From Sphingobacteriaceae bacterium (GTDB lineage: Bacteria > Bacteroidota > Bacteroidia > B-17B0 > Aurantibacillaceae): DNA of 64,000 nt. A program made the position numbers and the translations under genes. Positions within the stretch are counted from its first letter, which is position 1. Each line of letters opens with the position of its first letter. The stretch is from NCBI GenBank assembly GCA_002319075.1, contig NVQB01000001.1, forward strand, positions 930,001-994,000. The letters run 5' to 3'. Of the stretch, positions 4,237 through 21,179 are shown in pieces. The notes under the pieces were generated by a model. It saw only the letters and a list, made by a program, of their open reading frames with translations. It was not told the origin of the DNA and made no database searches.

Positions 4237-5010
4237 ATGGATTTAAAAAACAAAACAATTCTAATTACTGGAGGCACCAGCGGCTTTGGATTGCTCTTTG
4301 CTGAAAAACTTTTTAAAGGGGGTAACACTGTTATAATAACCGGGCGCGACGCTGATAAACTAGCTCTTGTAAAAAATCAATTTCCTTCCATTCATACTTT
4401 TCAGAGCGACGTGAGTAAGGTGGATGACATTCTTCATCTTTTTACACACGTCACAAAACAATTTCCTGCCTTAAGTATTCTTATTAATAATGCTGGAGAA
4501 ATGAGAAGGATTAATTTGCACGATCCTGCCAACGACATTCATAACATCACGAGGGAGATAGAAATTAATTTATCGGGGCCAATCCGCATGATACAACACT
4601 TTCTTCCCTTTTTAAAAACAAAACCCGAAGCTGCTATTCTGAATGTTACTTCAGGACTTGCCCTGGTTCCTTTTCCTATCTCACCCGTTTATGGCGCAAC
4701 AAAATCGGGCCTGCGTTCTTATACCAGGTCTTTAAGAGTTCAATTAAAAAAAACAAACATAAAAGTTTTTGAATTGATTGCACCCGCAGCGAATACTCCG
4801 CTTGCTGCTAAATTCTCAAAAGATGTGGACAGTAGAACCGCTATGGATCCAAATAAACTGGTAGACCTGGCTATTAAAGGATTGCATAACGATACTTACG
4901 AAATCTATCCTGGTATGGCAAAAGCAATGAAACTTCTCAGCCGTTTGATTCCTGATCAGTTTTTAAAACTATTAAGTAAACCCGTAGATGCAATGCTTGC
5001 AGAACAGTAA
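4237..5010 (+). CDS. Short-chain dehydrogenase, DltE-like
   Basis: A 257-residue cytosolic SDR oxidoreductase. The nucleotide-binding motif TGGTSGFG is at residues 11-18, NNAG near 85, and the catalytic Tyr-Lys pair in YGATK near 150. The sequence around the active site resembles the DltE-type branch. Substrate unknown. A TACCTTTG -10-like element lies at 4209-4216 but no good TTTG partner was found. It probably starts a cluster with the second SDR 44 bases downstream. Confidence 0.8.
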   Translation: MDLKNKTILITGGTSGFGLLFAEKLFKGGNTVIITGRDADKLALVKNQFPSIHTFQSDVSKVDDILHLFTHVTKQFPALSILINNAGEMRRINLHDPANDIHNITREIEINLSGPIRMIQHFLPFLKTKPEAAILNVTSGLALVPFPISPVYGATKSGLRSYTRSLRVQLKKTNIKVFELIAPAANTPLAAKFSKDVDSRTAMDPNKLVDLAIKGLHNDTYEIYPGMAKAMKLLSRLIPDQFLKLLSKPVDAMLAEQ

Positions 5011-9119: not shown

Positions 9120-9149
9120 TTAATTCCTACTAAATTAGTAGTATATTTG
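9120..9149 (+). promoter_or_regulatory. Rrf2 gene promoter with embedded palindromic operator
   Basis: TATATTTG (9142-9149) matches the Bacteroidota -7 element. Directly upstream is a perfect 15-bp palindrome, CTACTAA-A-TTAGTAG (9127-9141), in the place of the core spacer. The 10-mer TTAATTCCTA that overlaps its left edge (9120-9129) recurs at 9637-9646 before the sulfur leader. Binding by the Rrf2 protein, giving autoregulation, is an inference from position and the shared word. Confidence 0.55.
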
Positions 9150-9167
9150 ATAAATCATTTATTCCAG

Positions 9168-9623
9168 ATGTTACAGAAAAAAACCAAATACGCCATAAAA
9201 GCCTTGTTATCATTGGCTAAAGTATACAAGGAGCAAAAACCAATGCGCATTTCAGAGATCGCAGCAACTGAAAAGATTCCACGTAAATTCCTGGAAGCTA
9301 TTTTACTGGAATTAAGAAACCAGGGTATTGTAGGCAGTAAAATGGGCTCTACCGGGGGTTATTATCTGACAAAACACCCGGAAGAAATTATGCTGAGTAA
9401 TGTCATCCGGTCAACCGGCGGCCCCATTGCCCTGCTGCCTTGCGTTAGTCTTAATTTCTATGAATCATGCAACGAATGTCCTAACGAACAAATTTGCGGC
9501 TTAAGGAATGTGATACTCGAAGTTCGCGAAGCCAGCATTAAAATTCTTTCTAAAACCAGTTTGGCCGATATTATTTTACGAGAAAAAAAATTGGAGAAAA
9601 AATCAAAATCTCAGCGCAAATGA
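9168..9623 (+). CDS. Rrf2 family transcriptional regulator
   Basis: A 151-residue regulator counted from the ATG at 9168; an upstream TTG in frame lies inside the promoter element. It shows the winged-helix of Rrf2 proteins (KYAIKALLSLAK, then MRISEIAATEKIPRKFLEAIL as recognition region, then GIVGSKMGSTGGYYL as wing). Four cysteines are present (CVSLNFYESCNECPNEQIC, around residues 95-113), compatible with an Fe-S cluster or thiol sensing as in IscR/NsrR-type members. Orientation and position immediately before the sulfate-assimilation operon suggest a CymR/CysR-like role; this is inference. Confidence 0.85.
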   Translation: MLQKKTKYAIKALLSLAKVYKEQKPMRISEIAATEKIPRKFLEAILLELRNQGIVGSKMGSTGGYYLTKHPEEIMLSNVIRSTGGPIALLPCVSLNFYESCNECPNEQICGLRNVILEVREASIKILSKTSLADIILREKKLEKKSKSQRK

Positions 9624-9678: not shown

Positions 9679-9730
9679 ATTTTTACTTGCACAGTCGGAA
9701 TAAAACACTGTAATTTGCCGAAGTAAAAAT
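9679..9730 (+). promoter_or_regulatory. Promoter of the sulfur-assimilation leader, framed by an inverted repeat
   Basis: CTTG (9686-9689) and TAATTTG (9711-9717), 21 bases apart, are a near-consensus promoter. Transcription would start near 9723, only a few bases before the leader ATG at 9729. The promoter is framed by a perfect 10-bp inverted repeat, ATTTTTACTT (9679-9688) and AAGTAAAAAT (9721-9730), the right arm of which includes the first two bases of the start codon. Confidence 0.45.
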
Positions 9731-9806
9731 GAAAACAAAATTCTACATCGCTTTAAAAAACCATTCGTCTATGATGTGTTGCTGCAAGATGCAACGGGTT
9801 CTGTGA
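9729..9806 (+). CDS. Cys/Met-rich leader peptide of the sulfate-assimilation operon
   Basis: A 25-codon reading frame, too short for ordinary gene finding. It starts at the ATG at 9729 and ends with TGA at 9804-9806. Residues 15-25 read MMCCCKMQRVL, with three consecutive Cys codons (TGT TGC TGC, 9777-9785) and three Met codons. A hairpin GTTGC / GCAAC (9778-9782, 9791-9795) covers these codons, and an intrinsic terminator begins 23 bases after the stop. The first structural gene downstream makes sulfide for cysteine synthesis. This is the classical layout of a ribosome-mediated attenuator sensing cysteinyl-tRNA. Cys-run leaders are known in Actinobacteria; I do not know of a described case in this phylum. 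Confidence 0.72.
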   Translation: MKTKFYIALKNHSSMMCCCKMQRVL

Positions 9807-9828
9807 CGGAATGGATAGTTAAAAAACT

Positions 9829-9858
9829 GCCCCTCCGTGATAACGGCGGGGCTTTTTT
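9829..9858 (+). terminator. Attenuator terminator before the sulfite reductase gene
   Basis: GCCCC-T-CCGT (9829-9838) pairs with ACGG-C-GGGGC (9843-9852) around a GATA loop, with one internal mismatch, followed by six T's. It lies between promoter and first structural gene, so it must be conditional. A competing pairing exists: ACGGA at 9806-9810, at the leader stop codon, is complementary to TCCGT at 9834-9838 in the left arm. A ribosome stalled on the Cys codons would leave 9806-9810 free and could thereby prevent the terminator. Confidence 0.75.
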
Positions 9859-9904
9859 ATTGAGATAAAGTAGTTAGAATCAGGTTTAATCAGAGTTAAA
9901 GAAA

Positions 9905-11992
9905 ATGCAAAGTTTCAGAACAGAATTAGAAAACGCAGTAGTTGAAAAAGATATCCTCGATCTTGAAAGAAAGATAAGGGAATTCAGAGAAGGGAAAATC
10001 CATGAGGACAAATTCCGGAGCCTGCGTCTTGCACGTGGCGTGTACGGACAACGTCAGCAGGGCGTGCAGATGATCCGCATTAAATTACCATTTGGAAAAT
10101 TAAGCACAAAACAACTAGTTCGCATTGCCAATATCAGCGATGAGTATTCAAACGGCAACCTCCATCTTACAACCCGCCAGGACATACAGGTGCATTATGT
10201 CAGTCTTGACAAAACTCCTCAATTATGGGCTGAACTTGAAAAAGATGATATCACCTTGCGTGAAGCTTGCGGAAATACAGTACGTAACATCACTGCTTCG
10301 GCCGAAGCAGGAATTGATCCGGATGAAGTTTTTGACGTCTCACCCTATGCTCAGGCTTTGTTCAGCTATTTCCTGCGTAAACCTTTTGGACAAGAACTAG
10401 GACGAAAAATAAAAATTGCTTTTTCGAATAACGACAAAGATACCGCTGTAACATACATTCATGATTTTGGATTTATTCCCAAAATAAATCCCCAAGGCGA
10501 AAGAGGTTTTAAAGTGATGGTCGGGGGTGGACTCGGAGCACAACCTTTCCTGGCGCAGGTAGCTTTCGGATTTTTGCCGGAAGATAAACTTATTCCGTTT
10601 GTAGAGTCCAGTATCCGCGTGTTCGACCGTTACGGAGAAAGAGCGAGTCGCCACAAAGCGCGGATCAAATACCTTATTCAGAAAATTGGAATTGCTGAAT
10701 TTTTAAAATTAACAGAGGAAGAAGAAAAGGCCATCGCCAACAAGACTGTGAAAGTTGATGCGGCAACCCTTTATCCTGAGCTTGAGAAAAGGGAGCTTGG
10801 ATCTTTACCAGCTATTGATGACGCTGAATACTCAACATGGCTGCGGACCAATACCTTCCAACAAAAACAACCCGGTTATTTTGGAGTCTATCTAAAAATC
10901 CCTTTGGGAAATATCTCTTCGCAAAAAGCACGCGCCCTGGCTAACGTTATTGATCTGTACGCTGATTCCGCGGATTTGAGGATTACTATCAATCAGGGTA
11001 TTCTTTTAAGATTCGTAACTAAAGAAACTTTACCCTTTCTGTTTTTCGCGTTAAATGAATTGGAACTTGCGAGTCCAGGATTTAATTCCGTTGCCGACAT
11101 TACTGCCTGTCCGGGAACAGACACCTGCAACCTCGCGATTTCTAACAGTACTAACATTTCCTTGGAACTCGAAAAAGTTATTACGACAGAGTACCCTGAA
11201 CTTATCTACAACCACGACATCCGTATCAAAATCAGCGGATGCATGAATTCCTGCGGTCAGCATGGCCTGGCTCAAATCGGATTTCACGGGAGTTCCTTTA
11301 AAGTAGGAACAAACGTGGTTCCCGCCCTGCAAGTACTCCTGGGCGGAGGAACAAAAAGCAACGGCGAGGGCAGGATTTCGGAAAAAGTAATTAAGGTAGC
11401 GAGTAAAAGAGCTCCTGATGTTTTAAGAATGCTTTTTAATGATTTTGAAAATAATGCCGTGGAAGGCGAATACTTTAATTCTTATTACGATAAAAAGGGA
11501 AAAGACTATTTCTATCAACTTCTAAAACCGATAGCCGATAATTCCACCTTAAACAACTCAGAGTTTTTCGATTGGGGTTCGCAGGAAAAATTCAGCACTG
11601 CCATTGGTGTGGGAGAGTGCGCCAGTGTGATCATTGATTTGGTTCAGACTTTATTTTATGAAAGCGAAGAAAAATTAAACTGGAGTGCTGAAGCCTTTGA
11701 AAATCAAAAATTCTCTGACAGCATCTATTATTCTTATGCGGCATTTATTCATGCTGCAAAAGGCTTACTACTCGATGCCGAAGTGCATGTCAACACACAT
11801 CACAGTCTAATATCCGATTTCGATAAACACTTCGTGGAAAATGGATTAATAACGATTGAACCTACTTTTAAAGAAGTAGTTCTTCAAATAAATAAAAATG
11901 AACCCACTGCCAACTTTTCCGAATTCTACTTTAACCAGGCAAGTGCTTTTTTAGCACAGGTAAAAAATTACAGAACTTCTAAACAGAATTAA
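9905..11992 (+). CDS. Assimilatory sulfite reductase (siroheme, 4Fe-4S) with C-terminal HEPN-like domain
   Basis: A 695-residue nitrite/sulfite reductase hemoprotein. Two ferredoxin-like half domains and two siroheme-binding domains are recognisable; the first carries NGNLHLTTRQDIQVHY. The cluster ligands are in ACPGTDTCNLA (Cys-x5-Cys, near residue 405) and GCMNSCGQHG (Cys-x3-Cys, near 446), which bind the 4Fe-4S cluster bridged to siroheme. Context (CobA, siroheme synthase, APS reductase) shows sulfite as substrate. About 140 extra residues at the end are helical and contain YYSYAAFIHAAKGLLLDAEV followed by a HSLISDF...FVENGLI segment, resembling a HEPN domain; its role is unknown. No CysJ flavoprotein is present, so electrons probably come from ferredoxin via the reductase encoded at 17264. 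Confidence 0.88.
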   Translation: MQSFRTELENAVVEKDILDLERKIREFREGKIHEDKFRSLRLARGVYGQRQQGVQMIRIKLPFGKLSTKQLVRIANISDEYSNGNLHLTTRQDIQVHYVSLDKTPQLWAELEKDDITLREACGNTVRNITASAEAGIDPDEVFDVSPYAQALFSYFLRKPFGQELGRKIKIAFSNNDKDTAVTYIHDFGFIPKINPQGERGFKVMVGGGLGAQPFLAQVAFGFLPEDKLIPFVESSIRVFDRYGERASRHKARIKYLIQKIGIAEFLKLTEEEEKAIANKTVKVDAATLYPELEKRELGSLPAIDDAEYSTWLRTNTFQQKQPGYFGVYLKIPLGNISSQKARALANVIDLYADSADLRITINQGILLRFVTKETLPFLFFALNELELASPGFNSVADITACPGTDTCNLAISNSTNISLELEKVITTEYPELIYNHDIRIKISGCMNSCGQHGLAQIGFHGSSFKVGTNVVPALQVLLGGGTKSNGEGRISEKVIKVASKRAPDVLRMLFNDFENNAVEGEYFNSYYDKKGKDYFYQLLKPIADNSTLNNSEFFDWGSQEKFSTAIGVGECASVIIDLVQTLFYESEEKLNWSAEAFENQKFSDSIYYSYAAFIHAAKGLLLDAEVHVNTHHSLISDFDKHFVENGLITIEPTFKEVVLQINKNEPTANFSEFYFNQASAFLAQVKNYRTSKQN

Positions 11993-11993
11993 T

Positions 11994-12764
11994 ATGTCAA
12001 AACAGATAAATCCAAAGTTAACCCTCATAGGCGCTGGCCCAGGCGATAAAGAGCTTATTACCCTTAAAGGACTCAAAGCATTAAAAACAGCAGACGTTGT
12101 TTTATACGATGCGCTCGTTAACAAAGAACTTTTAAAAAGCGCTCCATCTGGCTCCTTAAAAATATTTGTTGGCAAACGTAAAAATTTACATGCCTATACA
12201 CAGGAGCAAATTAATAACCTGATTGTAGACCTGGCGTTTACACATGGACACGTGGTGCGTTTGAAGGGAGGAGACTCATTTGTTTTCGGAAGGGGTATGG
12301 AAGAAATGCAACATGCCTTAGCGTTTAACATTGAAACCACTGTTATCCCCGGCGTTTCGAGCTCTATTGCTGTTCCTGCTTTAGCGGGAATTCCTGTGAC
12401 ACACAGAGGAAGCAGCGAAAGTTTTTGGGTACTGACAGGAACAACAAAAAACAATGAACTTTCTAAAGACATTCTGCTTGCTGCAAAAACAGATGCAACC
12501 ATTATTATTTTAATGGGTCTGAACAAATTAAAAGAAATAGTAGAAATTTTTAGCAAAGAAGGGAAAGAAAAAACAGAAATTGCCATTATTCAGGATGGTT
12601 CATTACCTACTCAAACTATTGCCAGAGGCAACATTGAATCGATACTCACAATTACTGAAACCAAAAAGATAAAAGCGCCCGCCGTTATTGTTATCGGCGA
12701 GGTTGTAAAGCCACAAAGCCTGGTGTTAAAATCGGATTTTTCTTTAAATACCTTTTTAAACTAA
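11994..12764 (+). CDS. cobA: Uroporphyrinogen-III C-methyltransferase
   Basis: A 256-residue SAM-dependent enzyme that methylates uroporphyrinogen III at C2 and C7 to precorrin-2, the first step to siroheme. Visible motifs: LIGAGPGDKELITLKG (residues 11-26), VRLKGGDSFVFGRGMEE (near 83-99) and VIPGVSSSIAVPALAGIPVTHRG (near 116-138). It begins two bases after the sulfite reductase stop codon, so the two are translationally linked. It supplies the cofactor of that enzyme together with the fused dehydrogenase/ferrochelatase downstream. Confidence 0.93.
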   Translation: MSKQINPKLTLIGAGPGDKELITLKGLKALKTADVVLYDALVNKELLKSAPSGSLKIFVGKRKNLHAYTQEQINNLIVDLAFTHGHVVRLKGGDSFVFGRGMEEMQHALAFNIETTVIPGVSSSIAVPALAGIPVTHRGSSESFWVLTGTTKNNELSKDILLAAKTDATIIILMGLNKLKEIVEIFSKEGKEKTEIAIIQDGSLPTQTIARGNIESILTITETKKIKAPAVIVIGEVVKPQSLVLKSDFSLNTFLN

Positions 12765-12885: not shown

Positions 12886-15762
12886 ATGAAAACACCATTT
12901 TACCTGTTAGCATTCCTCTTTACTATTAAACTTACAGCTCAAAATAATTTACTCCAGGTTAGCGGAGAAATCCGTGATAAAAAAAACAATGACGCGCTTG
13001 TTGGCGCAATCATTCAGATGAAAGGCAGCAACGTGGTTAGTACAACAAATTCAGAAGGGAAATTCACTTTAAAGTCTTCGTCTAAATTTCCATTTACCCT
13101 CGTAGTAAGCTATACAGGCTATCAAAACCAGGAATTTTTAGTCGAAAATGAAACGACTAAAATCAAGCTGGAATTAAATCCCCAAACACTTTTAATTGAT
13201 GAAGTAGTCGTTTCAGCTTCACGCACGGAAGAAAGTATTCTTAAATCTCCTGTTGCTATTGATAAACTAGATATAATTACCATTCGCGAGACTCCCGCTC
13301 CTACTTTCTTCGACGCCCTCGAAAATGTGAAAGGTGTTCAAATGACAACTGGTAGCTTAACGTTTAAGGTTCCGAATACCCGTGGATTTAACTCGCCTAA
13401 TAACTTTCGTTTTACACAACTGGTTGACGGCATCGATATTCAGTCACCAACGCTTGGAATGGCCCTTGGCAATACAATTGGTCCCAATGAACTCGACATT
13501 AAAAGTGTCGAAATAATTCCGGGCTCCTCATCCGCCTTGTATGGCGTGAATTCTATTAACGGACTCTCCAACTCTTTTACTAAAAATCCCTTTTTATTTA
13601 AAGGGGTGGGCGTCTATCAACGTACCGGAGTTAATCATGTGGACAATATCGATCACGGTTTAAGTTTTATGAGCGAATCTGCTTTTCGTATCGCGAATAC
13701 GATTGGCTCTAAAGAACGTTTTGCATACAAATTTAACGCTTCTTATTTCCAGGGTGTAGACTGGGTATCGTCCAGCCCGACGGATCAAAATCCTTACCAG
13801 CTCACATCTTCAAATCCCAAATTTCCCGAGTTTACTTCACAAAACACGAATCCCGCTTATGATGGTTGGAATAATTACGGAAACGAAAGTAATAACACTA
13901 TCCCTGTAATAGTTAACTACCAGGGGAAAACTCAAACCCTCAATGTTCGTCGCACTGGTTGGGAAGAGAAAGATCTGGTTGATCCCAATGTAAAAAATAT
14001 TAAAATAGACGGAGCTCTGCATTACAAACCTACTAATAAAGTTGAGATCAGTTACAAATACCGGTTTGGACAAATGGACGGAGTGTTTCAAAGAGGCAAT
14101 AAAATCCAATTGAAAAATGCAACACTTCAAAATCATGCCATAGAAGTCAAAGGACAAGCTGTGACTTTTCGTGCATACACCTCCATTGAAAACACAGGAG
14201 ATTCTTACAATTTAAAACCTCTCTCCGATAATCTTGATCTTAGTTTTAAAGACAATAAAACATGGGGCAATGATTACAAAATAGCACTTCAAAATGCGGT
14301 GAATGCTGGAACAGATCTTGTGACAGCAAATCAAATTGCACGCGCGAAAGCCGACGCAGGAAGATACACAGCTGGTAATCCTGAATTTATAGCCATGCAA
14401 AATGAAATTGTGAAGATAAATAACTGGGACCACGCATCTTTAATATCTGACGCGCCAAAAACCGGTGGCGCAGCACTTTGGCAACGCAGCAGACTTTTTC
14501 ATTCAGACATTCAATATGATTTAAGTAAATACACGTCCAAATATATCGACGTTTTAGTGGGAGCCGATGCACGTGTGAATGATGTTATTCCTGATGGAAA
14601 TAATTTTGTGGATTTCAGTAAACCGCTCAATGAAAGAACCACTCCAGGCGGTAATGATGTTTATTACAGCAAAGTCGGCGGATTTGTTCAGGGAACAAAA
14701 AAACTACTGAAGGATAATTTAAAAATTATCGGCTCCTTACGTTATGATAAAAATTTTGATTTTGAAGGCAAATTTAATCCGCGCATTGCAATCGTATACA
14801 CTTTTTTAAAACAACACAACGTACGTGTTTCTTATCAGGATGGTTACCGTTTTCCCGCTTTATTTGAAGCACTTTCTTTTGTAAATAACGGCGGGGTGCG
14901 ACGGGTAGGAGGTTTACCAAAAGTAAATGACGGGCTGGGTTTCCTCGAAAATTCTTATACTAAAGCAAGTATTGATAATTTTTCAAGCGCAGTAAATAAC
15001 GCTATCGCCGCAGGACTTACAAGAAACGCAGCGATCCTAAAAAATAAATCTGTGCTGGAAGTTGCGAACTTACAACAATTACAACCAGAGCATATCCAGG
15101 CTTTCGATGCGGGTTATAAAGCTGTAGTGTTTAAAAACCGTGTGGTGGTCGACTGGGATTTTTATTACAACATCGAAAAAGGATTTTTAGGCCAGGTGGA
15201 AGTGGGCGTTCCAACCTCAGGCGCTGTGGGTTCTGACAGTGCTGCTTTCGACGCTTATACCAGACAGCGTAATGTACGTTACCGTGTATTCACCAACGCA
15301 AAGAACACTTATTTTAGTTATGGTTCTTCTTTAAGATTGAGTTATAATTTCTACAAGACTTATTCTATTTCAGGAAACCTGAATTACAACGGTCTCAAAA
15401 CACTCGATAAAAATGACATTTTTATTACAGGATTTAATACCCCTGAATGGTCTACCAATATCCAATTCGGAAACCGCGAGCTTTACAAACATTTTGGATT
15501 CAACATCGTTTGGAAATGGCAACAAAATTATTTATGGGAAAGTCCTTTGGCGACAGGAAATGTACCGTCTTTTAATACATTCGACGCGCAAATCTCATAT
15601 CATATTCCAAAGATAAATACCGTTGTAAAAGCAGGCGGAACTAATATTCTGAACAAACGTTATTACCAGTACGCAGCAGGGCCTACTATAGGCGGACTTT
15701 ATTACATCAGCGTTACTTACGATCTTAAATTTAAAAACAAAACAACCGACAGCGGTTCCTAA
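12886..15762 (+). CDS. TonB-dependent outer-membrane receptor in the sulfur operon
   Basis: A 958-residue outer-membrane receptor. Residues 1-18 are a signal peptide (MKTPFYLLAFLFTIKLTAQ). A carboxypeptidase-regulatory-like beta-sandwich spans about 22-105 (VSGEIRDKKNNDALVGAIIQ). The plug follows (VVVSASRTEESILKSPVAID ... VEIIPGSSSALYGVNSINGL) and the rest is a 22-strand-type barrel ending in a beta strand with aromatic residues (YYISVTYDLKFK). It lies inside the sulfate-assimilation gene run, 121 bases after cobA and 28 before the siroheme gene. Uptake of a sulfur-containing organic compound, such as a sulfate ester or sulfonate, is suggested by context only. No SusD partner is present. Confidence 0.88.
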   Translation: MKTPFYLLAFLFTIKLTAQNNLLQVSGEIRDKKNNDALVGAIIQMKGSNVVSTTNSEGKFTLKSSSKFPFTLVVSYTGYQNQEFLVENETTKIKLELNPQTLLIDEVVVSASRTEESILKSPVAIDKLDIITIRETPAPTFFDALENVKGVQMTTGSLTFKVPNTRGFNSPNNFRFTQLVDGIDIQSPTLGMALGNTIGPNELDIKSVEIIPGSSSALYGVNSINGLSNSFTKNPFLFKGVGVYQRTGVNHVDNIDHGLSFMSESAFRIANTIGSKERFAYKFNASYFQGVDWVSSSPTDQNPYQLTSSNPKFPEFTSQNTNPAYDGWNNYGNESNNTIPVIVNYQGKTQTLNVRRTGWEEKDLVDPNVKNIKIDGALHYKPTNKVEISYKYRFGQMDGVFQRGNKIQLKNATLQNHAIEVKGQAVTFRAYTSIENTGDSYNLKPLSDNLDLSFKDNKTWGNDYKIALQNAVNAGTDLVTANQIARAKADAGRYTAGNPEFIAMQNEIVKINNWDHASLISDAPKTGGAALWQRSRLFHSDIQYDLSKYTSKYIDVLVGADARVNDVIPDGNNFVDFSKPLNERTTPGGNDVYYSKVGGFVQGTKKLLKDNLKIIGSLRYDKNFDFEGKFNPRIAIVYTFLKQHNVRVSYQDGYRFPALFEALSFVNNGGVRRVGGLPKVNDGLGFLENSYTKASIDNFSSAVNNAIAAGLTRNAAILKNKSVLEVANLQQLQPEHIQAFDAGYKAVVFKNRVVVDWDFYYNIEKGFLGQVEVGVPTSGAVGSDSAAFDAYTRQRNVRYRVFTNAKNTYFSYGSSLRLSYNFYKTYSISGNLNYNGLKTLDKNDIFITGFNTPEWSTNIQFGNRELYKHFGFNIVWKWQQNYLWESPLATGNVPSFNTFDAQISYHIPKINTVVKAGGTNILNKRYYQYAAGPTIGGLYYISVTYDLKFKNKTTDSGS

Positions 15763-15790: not shown

Positions 15791-17260
15791 ATGTCAGCAG
15801 AACTAAAAAATAATCTTTTCCCTGTGTTCCTCAAATTGGAAGACTTTCGTGTGCTGGTTATAGGCGGCGGAAAAGTCGGACATGAAAAAGTTACAGCCTT
15901 GCTGAAGAACAGTCCTTCTGCAAACGTTACGCTTATTGCAACTAGTGTTTCCGAAGAAATAAGATTATTTCAGAATTCTTTTCCAAACCTTAAGATTTAT
16001 CAACGCCCTTTTGAATCAGAAGATTTGACTGACAAGGATCTAGTAATCATTGCGATTAATAACAAACCAGAAAGTCTCATCATAAAAAATTTGGCCAAAC
16101 AAAAAAACATACTCGCCAACGTGGCAGACACTCCTGAACAGTGTGACTTTTACCTAGGATCAATTGTTCAGAAAGGGCAAGTGAAAATTGCCGTTTCCAC
16201 AAATGGTAAATCCCCAACGCTTGCAAAGCGTATCCGCGAGACTTTTGAAGACTTTTTTCCGCATGAAATAAACGAATCTATTGAAAGTCTCACCGAAATT
16301 CGTAAACACCTCAGCGGCGACTTCACTGAAAAGGTAAAGCAGCTCAATACAATTACGGCAAGCCTGGCAAAAGACGGAATAAAAAAAGAAAATAAAATCA
16401 GTAAACAACGTTTGTGGATTTACAGTCTTTCCATTCCCGCTTTATTGATAGCCGGCTACCTCGTTGGATTTTTTCTTCCGCCAGATGTACTGGGAGGCTA
16501 CGCGTATCTTCTTGCACAAAGTGTAGACGCTTCCATTTTACTTTACATCCTGGCTGGCTTCGTGGCGCAGATGATTGATGGTGCGCTTGGCATGGCTTAT
16601 GGTATAACTGCTACAACGTTCTTACTCTCATTTGGCGTATCTCCTGCTGCATCCAGCGCAAGCGTGCATGCCTCAGAAGTTTTCACCAGTGGTGTATCCG
16701 GGCTCATGCATTTGAAATTCGGAAATGTAAACACAAAACTTTTTAAGAGTCTTTTAATTCCGGGCGTTATAGGAGCAATTCTTGGCGCGTATATTTTATC
16801 TTCTTTCCAGAGTTATGGATCTATTATAAAAACTTTAGTTTCAGTATACACACTTATTCTTGGTCTTATTATCATTTTTAAAGCCCTGAACAAAGACAAA
16901 ATTCGCCAGAAAATTAAAAGAATATTTCCTCTGGCATTGGTAGGCGGATTCCTTGATTCTATAGGTGGTGGAGGCTGGGGACCAATTGTTGCCTCCACTC
17001 TGATTGTAAGAGGAAGAAATCCGAAGTATACTATTGGAAGTGTAAATCTTGCTGAATTTTTTATCGCCCTCTCGAGCTCCCTGACTTTTATCACACTCAT
17101 TGGTTTAACGCATTGGACAATTATTGCCGGTTTGATTATTGGAGGTGTAATTGCAGCACCCCTTGCCGCTTTTCTCGCCAATAAAATTCCAGCGCGATCT
17201 ATCATGCTTTTGGTAGGAATCGCAGTTATTATTTTAAGTCTACAACGTATTTTATTTTAA
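15791..17260 (+). CDS. Fusion of precorrin-2 dehydrogenase/ferrochelatase with TauE/SafE-type permease
   Basis: A 489-residue two-part protein. Residues 1-200 match the CysG-B/Met8p family: dinucleotide-binding VLVIGGGKVGHEKV near 21-34, then NVADTPEQCDFYLGSIVQKG around 110-130, containing the conserved Asp used for dehydrogenation and chelation. This part would turn precorrin-2 into siroheme. From about residue 212 on there are seven or eight transmembrane helices of the TSUP (TauE/SafE) family, with the paired motifs VAQMIDGALGMAYGITATTF and GGFLDSIGGGGWGPIVASTL. TSUP proteins move sulfite, sulfoacetate or other anions. The fusion places siroheme synthesis at the membrane next to an anion channel. 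The reading frame is continuous. Confidence 0.88.
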   Translation: MSAELKNNLFPVFLKLEDFRVLVIGGGKVGHEKVTALLKNSPSANVTLIATSVSEEIRLFQNSFPNLKIYQRPFESEDLTDKDLVIIAINNKPESLIIKNLAKQKNILANVADTPEQCDFYLGSIVQKGQVKIAVSTNGKSPTLAKRIRETFEDFFPHEINESIESLTEIRKHLSGDFTEKVKQLNTITASLAKDGIKKENKISKQRLWIYSLSIPALLIAGYLVGFFLPPDVLGGYAYLLAQSVDASILLYILAGFVAQMIDGALGMAYGITATTFLLSFGVSPAASSASVHASEVFTSGVSGLMHLKFGNVNTKLFKSLLIPGVIGAILGAYILSSFQSYGSIIKTLVSVYTLILGLIIIFKALNKDKIRQKIKRIFPLALVGGFLDSIGGGGWGPIVASTLIVRGRNPKYTIGSVNLAEFFIALSSSLTFITLIGLTHWTIIAGLIIGGVIAAPLAAFLANKIPARSIMLLVGIAVIILSLQRILF

Positions 17261-17263
17261 ATT

Positions 17264-18271
17264 ATGATCACTACAGATATCGCCATTGTTGGCGCCGGAC
17301 CCGTTGCACTTTTCGCTGTTTTTGAAGCAGGCCTTTTGAAAATGCGTTGCCACCTCATCGATTACCTTCCTCAGATTGGAGGACAGCTTTCTGAGATTTA
17401 TCCGAAAAAACCTATTTATGATATCCCCGGATTTCCAAGTGTGCTTGCGCAAGAACTTATTGATAATCTCGCAAAACAAGCTGAACCTTTTCACCCAGGC
17501 TATACTTTAGGAGAGCGCATTGAAACTTTAGAAAAACAGGAAACTGATTTTCTACTTACTACAAACATGGGAACCCAGATAAACGCAAAGGTTGTAGTTA
17601 TCGCTGCAGGACTGGGATGCTTTGAGCCTCGCAAACCAGAAGTAGAAGGACTCGCCAGATTCGAAAATGGAAAAGGTGTTAACTACATGATTCTTGATCC
17701 GGAAAAATACAGGGATCAGAAAATGGTAATTGCCGGCGCGGGAGACAGCGCACTCGACTGGACAATTTACTTAAGTGAAATTTGTTCAGAGCTCACACTT
17801 GTTCACAGAAGCGAATCTTTTAGAGGCGCTCCCGACAGTGTGTCTAAAGTACTTAAGCTTGCCGAAGAAGGAAAAATAAACCTCCATTTAAATTCCAATT
17901 TAAATTATGTGAATGGAAATGGAAAACTAAAAAGCGTTGCCCTTACCAATAGCAAAACCAATGAACAAACGGTAATTGATACAGATCATTTAGTGCCGCT
18001 TTTTGGCTTAAGCCCCAAATTAGGGCCAATTGAAGCCTGGGGTTTAAATATCGATAAAAACGCCATTGAAGTAAACACAGATGATTACTCCACGAACATT
18101 CCGGGTATTTATGCTATTGGTGACATCAATACTTACAAAAACAAACTAAAACTAATTCTCTGCGGATTTCATGAAGCTTCTCTCATGGCTCACAGCGCTT
18201 ACAAATACATAAATCCCGGTGTAAAATACACCATGAAATACACAACCGTTAATGGCGTTAATGCATTCTAA
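17264..18271 (+). CDS. Ferredoxin/flavodoxin-NADP+ reductase, thioredoxin-reductase type
   Basis: A 335-residue FAD- and NADPH-binding enzyme of the type II FNR group. FAD motif IVGAGPVALFAVFEAGLL (residues 7-24), followed by GGQLSEIYPKKPIYDIPGFP, which lacks the CxxC redox disulfide of thioredoxin reductases. The NADP motif is IAGAGDSALDWT near 153, and GIYAIGDINTY near 285 is the second FAD contact. The gene starts three bases after the fusion gene and overlaps no other. It probably feeds electrons from NADPH through ferredoxin to the sulfite reductase, replacing CysJ. Confidence 0.88.
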   Translation: MITTDIAIVGAGPVALFAVFEAGLLKMRCHLIDYLPQIGGQLSEIYPKKPIYDIPGFPSVLAQELIDNLAKQAEPFHPGYTLGERIETLEKQETDFLLTTNMGTQINAKVVVIAAGLGCFEPRKPEVEGLARFENGKGVNYMILDPEKYRDQKMVIAGAGDSALDWTIYLSEICSELTLVHRSESFRGAPDSVSKVLKLAEEGKINLHLNSNLNYVNGNGKLKSVALTNSKTNEQTVIDTDHLVPLFGLSPKLGPIEAWGLNIDKNAIEVNTDDYSTNIPGIYAIGDINTYKNKLKLILCGFHEASLMAHSAYKYINPGVKYTMKYTTVNGVNAF

Positions 18272-18278
18272 AACTACT

Positions 18279-18983
18279 ATGCTGAAAGAACTAAATAATC
18301 TTATTGAACTCACGCAAGGGGCGTCGCCAGAGCAAGCCTTAAAACTGCTCTGCGAGAGATTCCCAGACCAGGTCGTTTTTTCCACGAGTCTCGGTTACGA
18401 AGACCAGGTAATAAGTCATTTTATTTTTTCAAATAATTTGCCTGTTAAAGTGTTTACTTTAGATACCGGTCGCTTGTTTCCTGAAACCTATTCTGTTTTA
18501 CAAAGCACCTTAGAACGCTACAAACAAACCATTCACACGTATTACCCTCAAACAGAAAGTGTCGAAAAATTAGTGACAGGAAAAGGTCCTTCCAGCTTTT
18601 ATGAATCGGTAGAGAACAGAAAAGAATGCTGTTTTATTAGAAAAGTGCAACCGCTGAAGCGAGCTTTAGAAGGGCATAAAATATGGGTCACCGGCATCCG
18701 CGCCGAACAATCGGGCAACCGCAAAGGTATGCCCGCTCTTGAATGGGACGAATCCAACAACATCATTAAATTTCATCCTATCATTGACTGGACTTTTGAA
18801 GAAACAAAAGACTACGTTAAAAAATTTAATATTCCTTACAATAGTTTGCATGATAAAGGGTTTGTAAGTATTGGCTGCGGCCCTTGCACACGGGCAGTAA
18901 AAGAAGGAGAAGACTTTCGTGCCGGACGTTGGTGGTGGGAACAAAATGACAAAAAAGAATGTGGGCTTCATGAACACAAATAG
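18279..18983 (+). CDS. cysH: Adenylyl-sulfate (APS) reductase, CysH family
   Basis: A 234-residue reductase. The ATG at 18279 is preferred because it lies 7 bases after the preceding stop; ATGs at 18252 and 18261 lie inside the previous gene. The adenylyl-sulfate pocket is seen in FSTSLGYEDQVISHF and VFTLDTGRLFPETY. The cysteines needed for a 4Fe-4S cluster are present as ECC (in RKECCFIRK) and CGPC (in IGCGPCTRA), which marks APS rather than PAPS as substrate. The catalytic Cys is in the C-terminal ECGLH. This agrees with the absence of an APS kinase (CysC) in the operon. Confidence 0.92.
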   Translation: MLKELNNLIELTQGASPEQALKLLCERFPDQVVFSTSLGYEDQVISHFIFSNNLPVKVFTLDTGRLFPETYSVLQSTLERYKQTIHTYYPQTESVEKLVTGKGPSSFYESVENRKECCFIRKVQPLKRALEGHKIWVTGIRAEQSGNRKGMPALEWDESNNIIKFHPIIDWTFEETKDYVKKFNIPYNSLHDKGFVSIGCGPCTRAVKEGEDFRAGRWWWEQNDKKECGLHEHK

Positions 18984-19004: not shown

Positions 19005-19913
19005 ATGACAAAACAAAAAGATTATTTAGATGAGCTGGAAGCAGAAGCCATTTATATTTTGAGAGAAGTGGCCGGACAATTCGATAAACCTGCGCTCTTA
19101 TTCAGTGGCGGAAAAGACAGTATTTGTTTAGTGCATCTGGCCTTAAAGGCCTTTCGTCCTGGTAGATTTCCCTTTCCCCTGGTACACGTGGATACAGGGC
19201 ATAATTTCCCGGAGGCCATTGCTTACCGGGATAAGCTTGCAAAAGAACTTGGAGAAAAACTCATTGTCAGAAAAGTAGAAGATACGATCAAACAAAAAAA
19301 ACTGCAGGACGGTAAAGGAAAATTTCCCAGCCGGAACGGATTACAAACTTATACTTTGCTGGACGTAATTGAAGAATTTGAATTTGACGCCTGCATTGGC
19401 GGGGCTCGCCGCGACGAAGAAAAAGCCCGGGCCAAAGAAAGGATCTTTTCTATACGAGATGAATTCGGGCAATGGGATCCGAAAATGCAAAGACCCGAAC
19501 TTTGGAATATCTACAACGGAAAAATAAACAAAGGAGAAAACGTTCGCGTATTTCCGATAAGCAACTGGACGGAACTCGATGTTTGGAATTACATCAAACG
19601 CGAAAACATTCAATTGCCTTCCATTTATTTTACCCATCAACGTGAGTGTGTATTAACCGAAAACGGCCAACTTATGAACGTTAATGAATTTATAAAGTTG
19701 GATGAAAACGATGTAATAGTTACAAGAAATGTACGCTATAGAACCGTTGGTGATATGACTTGCACAGCTGCCGTGGAAAGTGAAGCTACTAAAGTGGACG
19801 ACATCATTCTTGAATTAAAAGATGCCAGGGTCAGTGAGCGAGGCGCAACGCGAATGGACGATAAAGTAAGTGAAGCGGCAATGGAAGACCGTAAAAAAGG
19901 CGGGTATTTTTAA
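19005..19913 (+). CDS. cysD: Sulfate adenylyltransferase subunit 2
   Basis: A 302-residue ATP sulfurylase catalytic subunit of the PP-loop ATPase family. LLFSGGKDSICLVHL near residues 31-45 is the pyrophosphate-binding PP-loop; GGARRDEEKARAKERIFS near 128 and the closing RGATRMDDK...MEDRKKGGYF are characteristic of CysD. It makes adenylyl sulfate from sulfate and ATP, driven by GTP hydrolysis in CysN, whose gene follows after 21 bases. Confidence 0.95.
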   Translation: MTKQKDYLDELEAEAIYILREVAGQFDKPALLFSGGKDSICLVHLALKAFRPGRFPFPLVHVDTGHNFPEAIAYRDKLAKELGEKLIVRKVEDTIKQKKLQDGKGKFPSRNGLQTYTLLDVIEEFEFDACIGGARRDEEKARAKERIFSIRDEFGQWDPKMQRPELWNIYNGKINKGENVRVFPISNWTELDVWNYIKRENIQLPSIYFTHQRECVLTENGQLMNVNEFIKLDENDVIVTRNVRYRTVGDMTCTAAVESEATKVDDIILELKDARVSERGATRMDDKVSEAAMEDRKKGGYF

Positions 19914-19934: not shown

Positions 19935-21179
19935 ATGGAACTATTAAGATTTTTTACGGCAGGAAATGTCGACGATGGAAAAAGTACACTTATAGGAAGA
20001 CTGCTCTACGACAGCGATTCCGTATCCACCGACATTCTTGAAACGTTAACCAAACAAAGTAAAATAACAGGGCCACATGCCGACATAGATTTGGCTTTGT
20101 TAACGGATGGTTTACGCGCAGAACGTGAACAGGGCATCACCATTGATGTTGCCTATAAATATTTCACTACCGGCAAACGTAAATTCATAATCGCCGATAC
20201 ACCCGGACATGTGCAATACACCAGAAACATGTTTACCGGAGCCTCCAATGCGAACCTGGCAATTATACTTGTTGACGCACGTCATGGCATTACCGACCAA
20301 ACAAAACGCCATTCTATACTTTCAGCGATACTTGGAGTTCCTCATGTTTTGGTCTGCATTAATAAAATGGATCTTGTTAATTATTCAGAGGCTACCTTTA
20401 AACAAATAGAATCAGAGTACATACTCTTCGCGAAAAATCTTGGATTAAAAACAGTTTCTTTTATTCCAGCCAGTGCTTTGGCAGGAGATAACGTGGTAAA
20501 AAAATCAAAAGAGATGCCCTGGTACAAAGGCCCTGCCCTACTCGACTTTTTAGAGACCGTAGAAATCACAGAAGTAGAAAGATCTTCAGCAGCGCGTTTC
20601 CAGGTGCAATATGTTATTCGTCCCCAAACAGAAACACTGCACGATTACAGGGGCTTCGCGGGGAGGGTTTCCGGCGGCTCCTACCAAAAAGGTCAGCGCG
20701 TAAAAGTTTTACCATCAGGGATAGAAACAGAAATTGAAAAAATAGAAATTCATCAGCAGGAAGTAGACGCTGCTGAAACAAATAGTTCGGTGGTAGTACA
20801 TCTTAAAGATGATGTGGATGTAAGCAGAGGTAACTCCATCGTTTCGCTTGACAAACTGCCACAAACAGCCAAAGAGTTCACTGCCACCGTTTGTTGGATG
20901 GATCACAGCGCTTTTATTCCCGGTCAGAAATTTTTATTGCAACAAAATAGTTTTCGCAGCAAGGCGATTATTAAAGAAGTAATAAGCAAAATAGATATTC
21001 ATTCTTTTAACGAATACACAGGCGACCTTTCGTTAAAACTGAATGACATTGGAAAAATCCTTATTAAAACTGCCGAACCAGTAAGTTTTGATTCTTATGT
21101 TGAAAACAGGAACACCGGATCTTTTATTTTAATAAATGAAGCGACAAATAACACCGTTGCTGCGGGAACAATTAACTAA
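19935..21179 (+). CDS. cysN: Sulfate adenylyltransferase subunit 1 (GTPase)
   Basis: A 414-residue translational-type GTPase. Motifs: G1 GNVDDGKST (residues 10-18), the switch I region REQGITIDVAYKYF, G3 DTPGH and G4 NKMD. EF-Tu-like beta-barrel domains II and III follow. There is no fused CysC kinase domain, unlike many NodQ-type proteins, again pointing to direct APS reduction. It is the last gene of the operon; the next gene is on the other strand and its stop codon lies only a few bases away. Confidence 0.94.
   Translation: MELLRFFTAGNVDDGKSTLIGRLLYDSDSVSTDILETLTKQSKITGPHADIDLALLTDGLRAEREQGITIDVAYKYFTTGKRKFIIADTPGHVQYTRNMFTGASNANLAIILVDARHGITDQTKRHSILSAILGVPHVLVCINKMDLVNYSEATFKQIESEYILFAKNLGLKTVSFIPASALAGDNVVKKSKEMPWYKGPALLDFLETVEITEVERSSAARFQVQYVIRPQTETLHDYRGFAGRVSGGSYQKGQRVKVLPSGIETEIEKIEIHQQEVDAAETNSSVVVHLKDDVDVSRGNSIVSLDKLPQTAKEFTATVCWMDHSAFIPGQKFLLQQNSFRSKAIIKEVISKIDIHSFNEYTGDLSLKLNDIGKILIKTAEPVSFDSYVENRNTGSFILINEATNNTVAAGTIN

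Follow-up and report, generated by a model that had tools for sequence, protein, structure and literature searches.

The trp and his attenuators of Enterobacteria consist of a short open reading frame carrying codons for the product of the operon, a hairpin over these codons, an antiterminator and an intrinsic terminator. The leader analysed here, which precedes the sulfate-assimilation operon of a Sphingobacteriaceae bacterium (GenBank assembly GCA_002319075.1, contig NVQB01000001.1), contains the same parts in the same order, and differs in phylum (Bacteroidota), codons (Cys and Met), pathway and in its 5' UTR, which is inferred to be probably very short. The window is the whole stretch of 64,000 nucleotides that was analysed (contig positions 930,001 to 994,000, forward strand), and positions are counted from its first letter.

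Leader peptides with Cys runs have been described before cys operons of Mycobacterium and Propionibacterium and before cbs of Bifidobacterium (PMC1262725). They resemble the window leader in that a short frame with consecutive Cys codons precedes sulfur genes; that article reports no conserved terminator hairpins for the mycobacterial regions, whereas here a terminator and an antiterminator recur and Met is enriched. The polycysteine leaderless short ORFs of mycobacteria, associated with Cys-responsive control (Canestrari 2020, as presented in PMC9031893 and PMC13236596), have a Cys-run ORF at the start of the transcript, and the window leader is similar in its Cys run and short promoter-to-start distance. 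As far as these secondary accounts extend, the mycobacterial ORFs act on translation and Met codons are not mentioned, while the window leader has a recurring intrinsic terminator. Membership in the mycobacterial group as described was rejected on account of the intrinsic terminator in the window and in many relatives. The uORFC-8-2 motif before cysS of Rhodobacterales (PMC8632094) also has tandem Cys codons in the first stem and a terminator with a U-run; unlike the window leader, in the sections of the source available it concerns a single gene (cysS) of alphaproteobacteria and two Cys codons, with no mention of Met.

Within the same phylum, attenuation by a short leader peptide has been reported before amino-acid operons of Flavobacterium psychrophilum, cys operons not being named in the portion of the article at hand (PMC9723704). 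Leader-like short ORFs are mentioned for B. thetaiotaomicron in PMC7366714, and the attenuation survey of Lopatovskaya et al. (2010), cited in PMC4833913, could contain such cases. Searches of the open-access PMC literature, which leave most subscription papers outside their scope, yielded no Cys or Met leader in Bacteroidota, in line with a preliminary description of this DNA that knew of no described case. To our knowledge, no Met-sensing leader has been described, and the control of sulfate assimilation in Bacteroidota is poorly worked out.

The leader and operon of the window

The features of the locus are as follows.

9147..9623, + strand: Rrf2-family transcription regulator gene (CymR/RirA/IscR-like), the upstream neighbour (Pfam Rrf2, E 9.5e-34; NCBIfam rrf2_super above cut-off)
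9687..9717, + strand: promoter-like element of the Bacteroidota -33/-7 type, TTG (9687-9689) and TAATTTG (9711-9717) (sequence; relaxed -7 motif in relatives)
9729..9806, + strand: leader ORF of 25 codons, peptide MKTKFYIALKNHSSMMCCCKMQRVL followed by the stop codon (sequence)
9761..9814, + strand: hairpin 1:2 over the Cys codons (fold; duplex z -2.74 against shuffles; ribosome-state folds)
9771..9791, + strand: presumed regulatory codons Met-Met-Cys-Cys-Cys-Lys-Met (sequence; Met enrichment beside Cys in relatives)
9806..9838, + strand: antiterminator hairpin 2:3, ACGGA (9806-9810) with UCCGU (9834-9838) and an inner stem (fold; relatives)
9829..9858, + strand: intrinsic terminator, hairpin 9829-9852 (-17.1 kcal/mol) and T-run 9853-9858 (sequence, fold)
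9905..11992, + strand: sulfite reductase hemoprotein, the first structural gene (Pfam NIR_SIR, 2.9e-47; NIR_SIR_ferr, 1e-34)
11994..12764, + strand: cobA, uroporphyrinogen-III C-methyltransferase (siroheme; TIGR01469 above cut-off)
12886..15762, + strand: TonB-dependent receptor
15791..17260, + strand: siroheme synthase N-domain fused to a TauE/SafE sulfite exporter
17264..18271, + strand: pyridine nucleotide-disulfide oxidoreductase, perhaps ferredoxin-NADP reductase-like
18252..18983, + strand: cysH, (phospho)adenylyl-sulfate reductase (NF002537 above cut-off)
19005..19913, + strand: cysD, sulfate adenylyltransferase small subunit (TIGR02039 above cut-off)
19935..21179, + strand: cysN, sulfate adenylyltransferase large subunit (TIGR02034 above cut-off)

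The sulfite reductase also carries a C-terminal HEPN match (Pfam, residues 581-651, E 2.8e-6).

The preliminary description had placed a 25-codon frame with Met-Met-Cys-Cys-Cys-Lys-Met ahead of the sulfate-assimilation operon and a promoter-like element a few bases before it, and both are present. The Cys codons occupy 9777-9785 and the Met codons 9771-9776 and 9789-9791, and the Bacteroidota-type -7 element TAATTTG ends 11 nt 5' of the leader ATG. This element was matched to the Bacteroidota -7 consensus, TAnnTTTG, and has one spacer base here, not two. The distance suggests a leader 5' UTR of a few bases, an inferred length, the start site being unmapped. A relaxed -7 motif lies within 60 nt upstream of 44 of the 78 leader ATGs identified in the scan of relatives below, compared with a mean of 9.3 and a highest value of 18 in shuffles.

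The RNA of 9720-9860 folds with -43.2 kcal/mol (z = -5.0), and none of 200 shuffles was equally good. The structural elements claimed for the leader were all recovered: a hairpin covering the Cys codons forms at 9761-9814; in the fold of RNA 9797-9840 the stretch 9806-9810 at the leader stop, thought to compete for the left arm of the terminator, does pair with it in a 33-nt hairpin (9806-9838, -12.2 kcal/mol, z -2.29); and an intrinsic terminator with the hairpin sequence GCCCCTCCGTGATAACGGCGGGGC stands between the leader and the sulfite reductase gene, 22 nt 3' of the leader stop codon. A general terminator scan of the region remained at chance level (1 found, 1.1 expected), so relatives were examined. 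The window's own antiterminator (2:3) duplex is no better than spacer shuffles (z +0.17), and the case for the antiterminator rests on relatives, not on this duplex.

The window RNA was also folded in five ribosome states, with the ribosome masking the first Cys, the third Cys, the following Met or the stop codon, or with no ribosome. In RNA up to 9840, the antiterminator folds in the three states with a ribosome on a Cys or Met codon, and does not fold with the ribosome at the stop codon or absent. In RNA up to 9852, the terminator belongs to the minimum-energy fold in all five states. Since the complete terminator is the most stable structure in every modelled state, antitermination must be kinetic, decided during transcription; for trp attenuation, a choice made during transcription is accepted. 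At the level of sequence and predicted structure, the leader shows all trp-type features that could be tested, namely a product-rich short ORF, a terminator, a mutually exclusive antiterminator, hairpin 1:2 and, for RNA up to 9840, the ribosome-position logic.

The Rfam scan of the 64-kb window gave no match at the gathering score, including riboswitches, T-box and SAM-I, and SAM-I, other Rfam riboswitches and T-box were rejected as the identity of the leader. The SAM-I riboswitch (RF00162), which controls Met and Cys genes, is absent from the window and lies directly before a Cys/Met frame in some relatives.

Recurrence of the leader in related loci

The relatives were sampled as the best 80 of 584 candidate loci, with the nearest sulfite reductases. 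Of the 81 stretches of 300 nt leading up to sulfite reductase (80 relatives and the window), 46 contain a frame that starts with ATG and has four or more Cys/Met among ten residues, compared with none of the 81 on the opposite strand and a mean of 0.7 of 81 in 20 rounds of shuffling. A wider scan of both strands of 82 sequences (the window and L003-L083), outside large ORFs, applied the same criterion together with a minimum of two Cys and a maximum distance of 500 nt to a gene; it yielded 79 candidate frames, 78 of them in the operon direction. Besides the window, 59 of the 80 nearest relatives' loci have the frame, including loci of Pedobacter, Mucilaginibacter, Chitinophaga and Pontibacter; the other 21 have none at this threshold, with weaker frames in some (L066, L068, L080). 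Two Cys/Met frames in tandem precede sulfite reductase in three loci (L028, L030, L190).

The 78 leader frames are located before sulfite reductase (56), cobA (12), an aldo/keto reductase gene (9) and metX (1). In relatives these gene names, and that of metY, rest on one or two tested members and on sequence likeness. As a control, the regions upstream of other genes were screened with the four-in-ten rule, and 29 of 532 satisfied it; 20 of the 27 strongest listed precede cobA or aldo/keto reductase and are further leaders, and 7 precede other genes. The front leader of the window aligns with seven relatives' frames before the aldo/keto reductase gene with a mean column identity of 76% at the nucleotide level, ACGGAA and GCCCCTCC being invariant in this alignment. 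Such alignability suggests common descent of these eight leaders.

The preliminary description had raised the chance that methionine is sensed as well, and this gains support from frames selected on Cys alone (two Cys within four residues), of which the 81 regions contain 49, against 8.2 in shuffles. Within four places of Cys, Met accounts for 103 of 466 residues (22%), compared with 1.8% in shuffles and 5.4% in the highest of 30 rounds, an approximately tenfold enrichment. Because Met is enriched beside Cys, both amino acids are probably sensed, their identity being an inference from codon content. Sensing both would make sense, we infer, as sulfide feeds cysteine and, via metY (O-acetylhomoserine sulfhydrylase, tested in one case, L135, of another genome), homocysteine and methionine. 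The choice of Cys codons in the leaders is not unusual (72 TGC and 69 TGT; 309 and 277 in sulfite reductase genes).

A terminator of -12 kcal/mol or below follows 48 of the 78 frames and only 1 of 234 shuffled regions. For the antiterminator, 49 frames with a terminator at least 8 kcal/mol stable (-8) within 60 nt of the stop codon were used, four of 53 having been dropped for distance. The folded segment began 12 nt downstream of the first base of the first Cys codon and stopped where the left arm of the terminator ends. In 48 of the 49 folds, five or more bases of this arm were paired upstream, and the mean paired share of the left arm was 0.70, against 0.49 in spacer shuffles (highest of 50 shuffle means 0.58). 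The antiterminator energy has a mean z of -1.76 (below -1 in 33 of 49) and the duplex a mean z of -1.87 against shuffles. Support for hairpin 1:2 over the 49 loci is weaker (mean z -0.87) than in the window.

From the first Cys codon to the start of the antiterminator the median distance is 23 nt (quartiles 21-28, 5th-95th centile 11-41), as measured in 45 of the 49 loci, four being dropped for too few pairs. Relative to the stop codon, the position of the antiterminator varies more (quartiles -18 to -1, 5th-95th centile -30 to 7). The median spacing in these predicted folds is such as a stalled ribosome would allow.

Covariation of the paired stems, also raised in the preliminary description, was found for one pair only. 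The CGGA/UCCG core was anchored in 16 of the 49 loci without looking at the flanks; the pair flanking it is A-U, G-C or C-G in 13 of 16 (permuted mean 9.2, p = 0.0015) and compensates in 9 of 12 distinct rows, while the next two outer pairs show no significant covariation (p 0.10 and 0.44). Many loci are closely related and unevenly sampled, which makes the p values optimistic and overstates independence.

In a sample of 158 genomes from across the phylum, sulfite reductase was detected at E 1e-50 in 23, the window's included, and 20 of the 22 other loci were analysed. A Cys/Met frame lies no more than 210 nt from sulfite reductase in three of them (L085, L086, L103), and the other 17 have none near the gene; in one family (f5), perhaps Flavobacteriaceae, none of 11 loci has such a frame near sulfite reductase. 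Several f5 loci contain SAM riboswitches within about 10 kb. The exact word ATGTGYTGYTGYAARATG was rejected as the conserved unit, being found in only 2 of 395 phylum genomes, the window's and G182; the match in the latter (locus L003) is not accompanied by a leader arrangement in either orientation and looks like chance. Many relatives among the Bacteroidota thus conserve Cys codons, though not in one fixed string, along with the terminator, its competing stem and the distance from stem to Cys codons; the exact MMCCCKM string is not conserved, and 17 of the phylum-wide loci lack the element near sulfite reductase. Judged by these sequence comparisons, the leader is common among the window's relatives and patchy beyond.

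In the window's genus, sulfite reductase is present in 10 of 36 other genomes, five of these loci being the same records as L005, L012, L013, L015 and L017. Six of the ten have a front leader and one (L183, same as L015) a weaker one; in L178, L185 and L187 no front leader was found in the 1.5 kb upstream examined, and the operon might start further upstream. An internal Cys-run frame lies between sulfite reductase and cobA in nine of the ten genus loci (L178, L180-L187), with up to eight Cys in a row (L187). The window has no frame before cobA, only 1 nt separating the two genes. Such internal frames may act on translation.

SAM riboswitches beside Cys/Met frames

A SAM riboswitch (62.7 bits) is encoded elsewhere in the window's genome, ending 12 nt before the frame MKHAKITNKKDTLSKVFNSDSPAQFLMMMCCMCCCCCMC upstream of metX, for which TIGR01392 is the best match, below its cut-off. 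The stretch (L084 852-1128; G000:C1 about 85,135-85,411) comprises the SAM riboswitch, a 39-codon frame ending MMMCCMCCCCCMC, a 76-codon frame and metX. The same arrangement, with a gap of 13 nt, is found in L017. A second, weaker SAM riboswitch of the window's genome (L176, G000:C1:2389938-2390121, minus strand, 50.9 bits) has no Cys/Met frame behind it; the gene that follows looks like metH.

Eight loci (L023, L024, L026, L032, L037, L039, L050, L054; seven Pontibacter, one Botryobacter) were tested for a SAM riboswitch because of poly-Cys frames far upstream of sulfite reductase, and in all eight the riboswitch, at about 4320-4690, ends 2-8 nt before the frame. Three of them (L024, L026, L054) have a second Cys frame nearer sulfite reductase. 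A SAM riboswitch is absent from seven other leader loci tested (L004, L009, L028, L030, L036, L044, L103), and that of L045 is remote from its leader. In a phylum sample of 70 SAM riboswitch loci (69 distinct; the 30 with the best scores and 40 chosen mostly from the window's class), a frame containing three or more Cys starts 7-8 nt after the aptamer in five (L157, L158, L163, L167, L173), four of them before genes resembling metY; the remaining loci of the sample have no such frame.

In SAM-I riboswitches, according to a 2007 survey (PMC2258182), the 3' side of P1 frequently contains the ribosome-binding site, which suggests, by inference, that SAM controls translation of the adjacent frame. 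A layered sulfur sensing in some Bacteroidota is conceivable, and we hold it as a serious possibility somewhat short of probable: one frame would register Cys-tRNA as well as Met-tRNA, since in these bacteria cysteine and homocysteine each receive sulfide by a separate route, and some copies, with the aptamer ending 2-13 nt before the ATG, would be gated by a SAM riboswitch, giving a three-input switch.

Proposed mechanism and alternative explanations

The leader is, with good confidence, interpreted as a trp-type ribosome-mediated transcription attenuator answering to charged Cys-tRNA and probably Met-tRNA, the expression response being inferred. RNA polymerase would start a few bases before the leader ATG. 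With Cys and Met plentiful, the ribosome would reach the stop codon and cover 9806-9814, and the terminator (9829-9858) would form. When Cys (or Met) is short, the ribosome is predicted to stall at 9771-9791 and to cover the left part of hairpin 1:2, freeing 9806-9820 to pair with 9829-9838; the terminator would then come too late and the operon would be transcribed. Without a ribosome, hairpin 1:2 would hold 9806-9814, the antiterminator would be blocked and the terminator would form.

The operon could instead be controlled mainly by a CymR-like Rrf2-family repressor, the leader terminator being minor or constitutive. Between the end of the regulator gene and sulfite reductase there are 281 bp; among specific NCBIfam models CymR fits the regulator best, though below the cut-off of that model; and genes of similar sequence also stand ahead of sulfite reductase in loci without an identified leader (e.g., L087, L088). 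Neither the Cys/Met-rich frames nor the competing stems and their spacing would be expected from such a repressor, and the two layers can coexist; we consider repression as the main control unlikely, and the regulator as a possible second layer. About equally unlikely, in our estimate, is that Rho-dependent termination or start-site masking of the mycobacterial kind operates in place of the intrinsic terminator, given the close terminator in the window, at 40 of 56 sulfite reductase frames and at 8 of 9 aldo/keto reductase frames. The frames without a close intrinsic terminator are those before cobA (11 of 12) and metX (1 of 1), for which a Rho-dependent or masking mode probably exists.

The Cys/Met-rich product itself might be a working micropeptide acting in trans, for instance binding metal or thiols. 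Cys runs of up to eight residues (L187) and the likeness of the metX-linked peptides of the window's genome and L017 are compatible with this. A trans-acting peptide, however, needs no fixed stem-to-Cys-codon distance, and the 78 leader peptides comprise 77 distinct sequences, with little in common across genera beyond Cys and Met. A functional family was not identified for any of nine peptides above cut-off: the window peptide had one sub-threshold NCBIfam match (ORF56), eight further peptides gave nothing above cut-off in NCBIfam, and all nine gave nothing above cut-off in Pfam, with one sub-threshold match (AMOP). This explanation appears very improbable, and attenuation by the translating ribosome remains the preferred one.

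If correct, ribosome-mediated attenuation would show how many bacteria of soil and water regulate their sulfur uptake, and would account for dozens of short Cys-run frames that seem strange when viewed singly. It would add a Met-sensing leader to the known types and a case of one transcript that combines a SAM riboswitch with leader-peptide attenuation. Where the layered reading holds, high SAM would shut off translation of the frame, and expression would occur only when SAM is low and Cys or Met is low.
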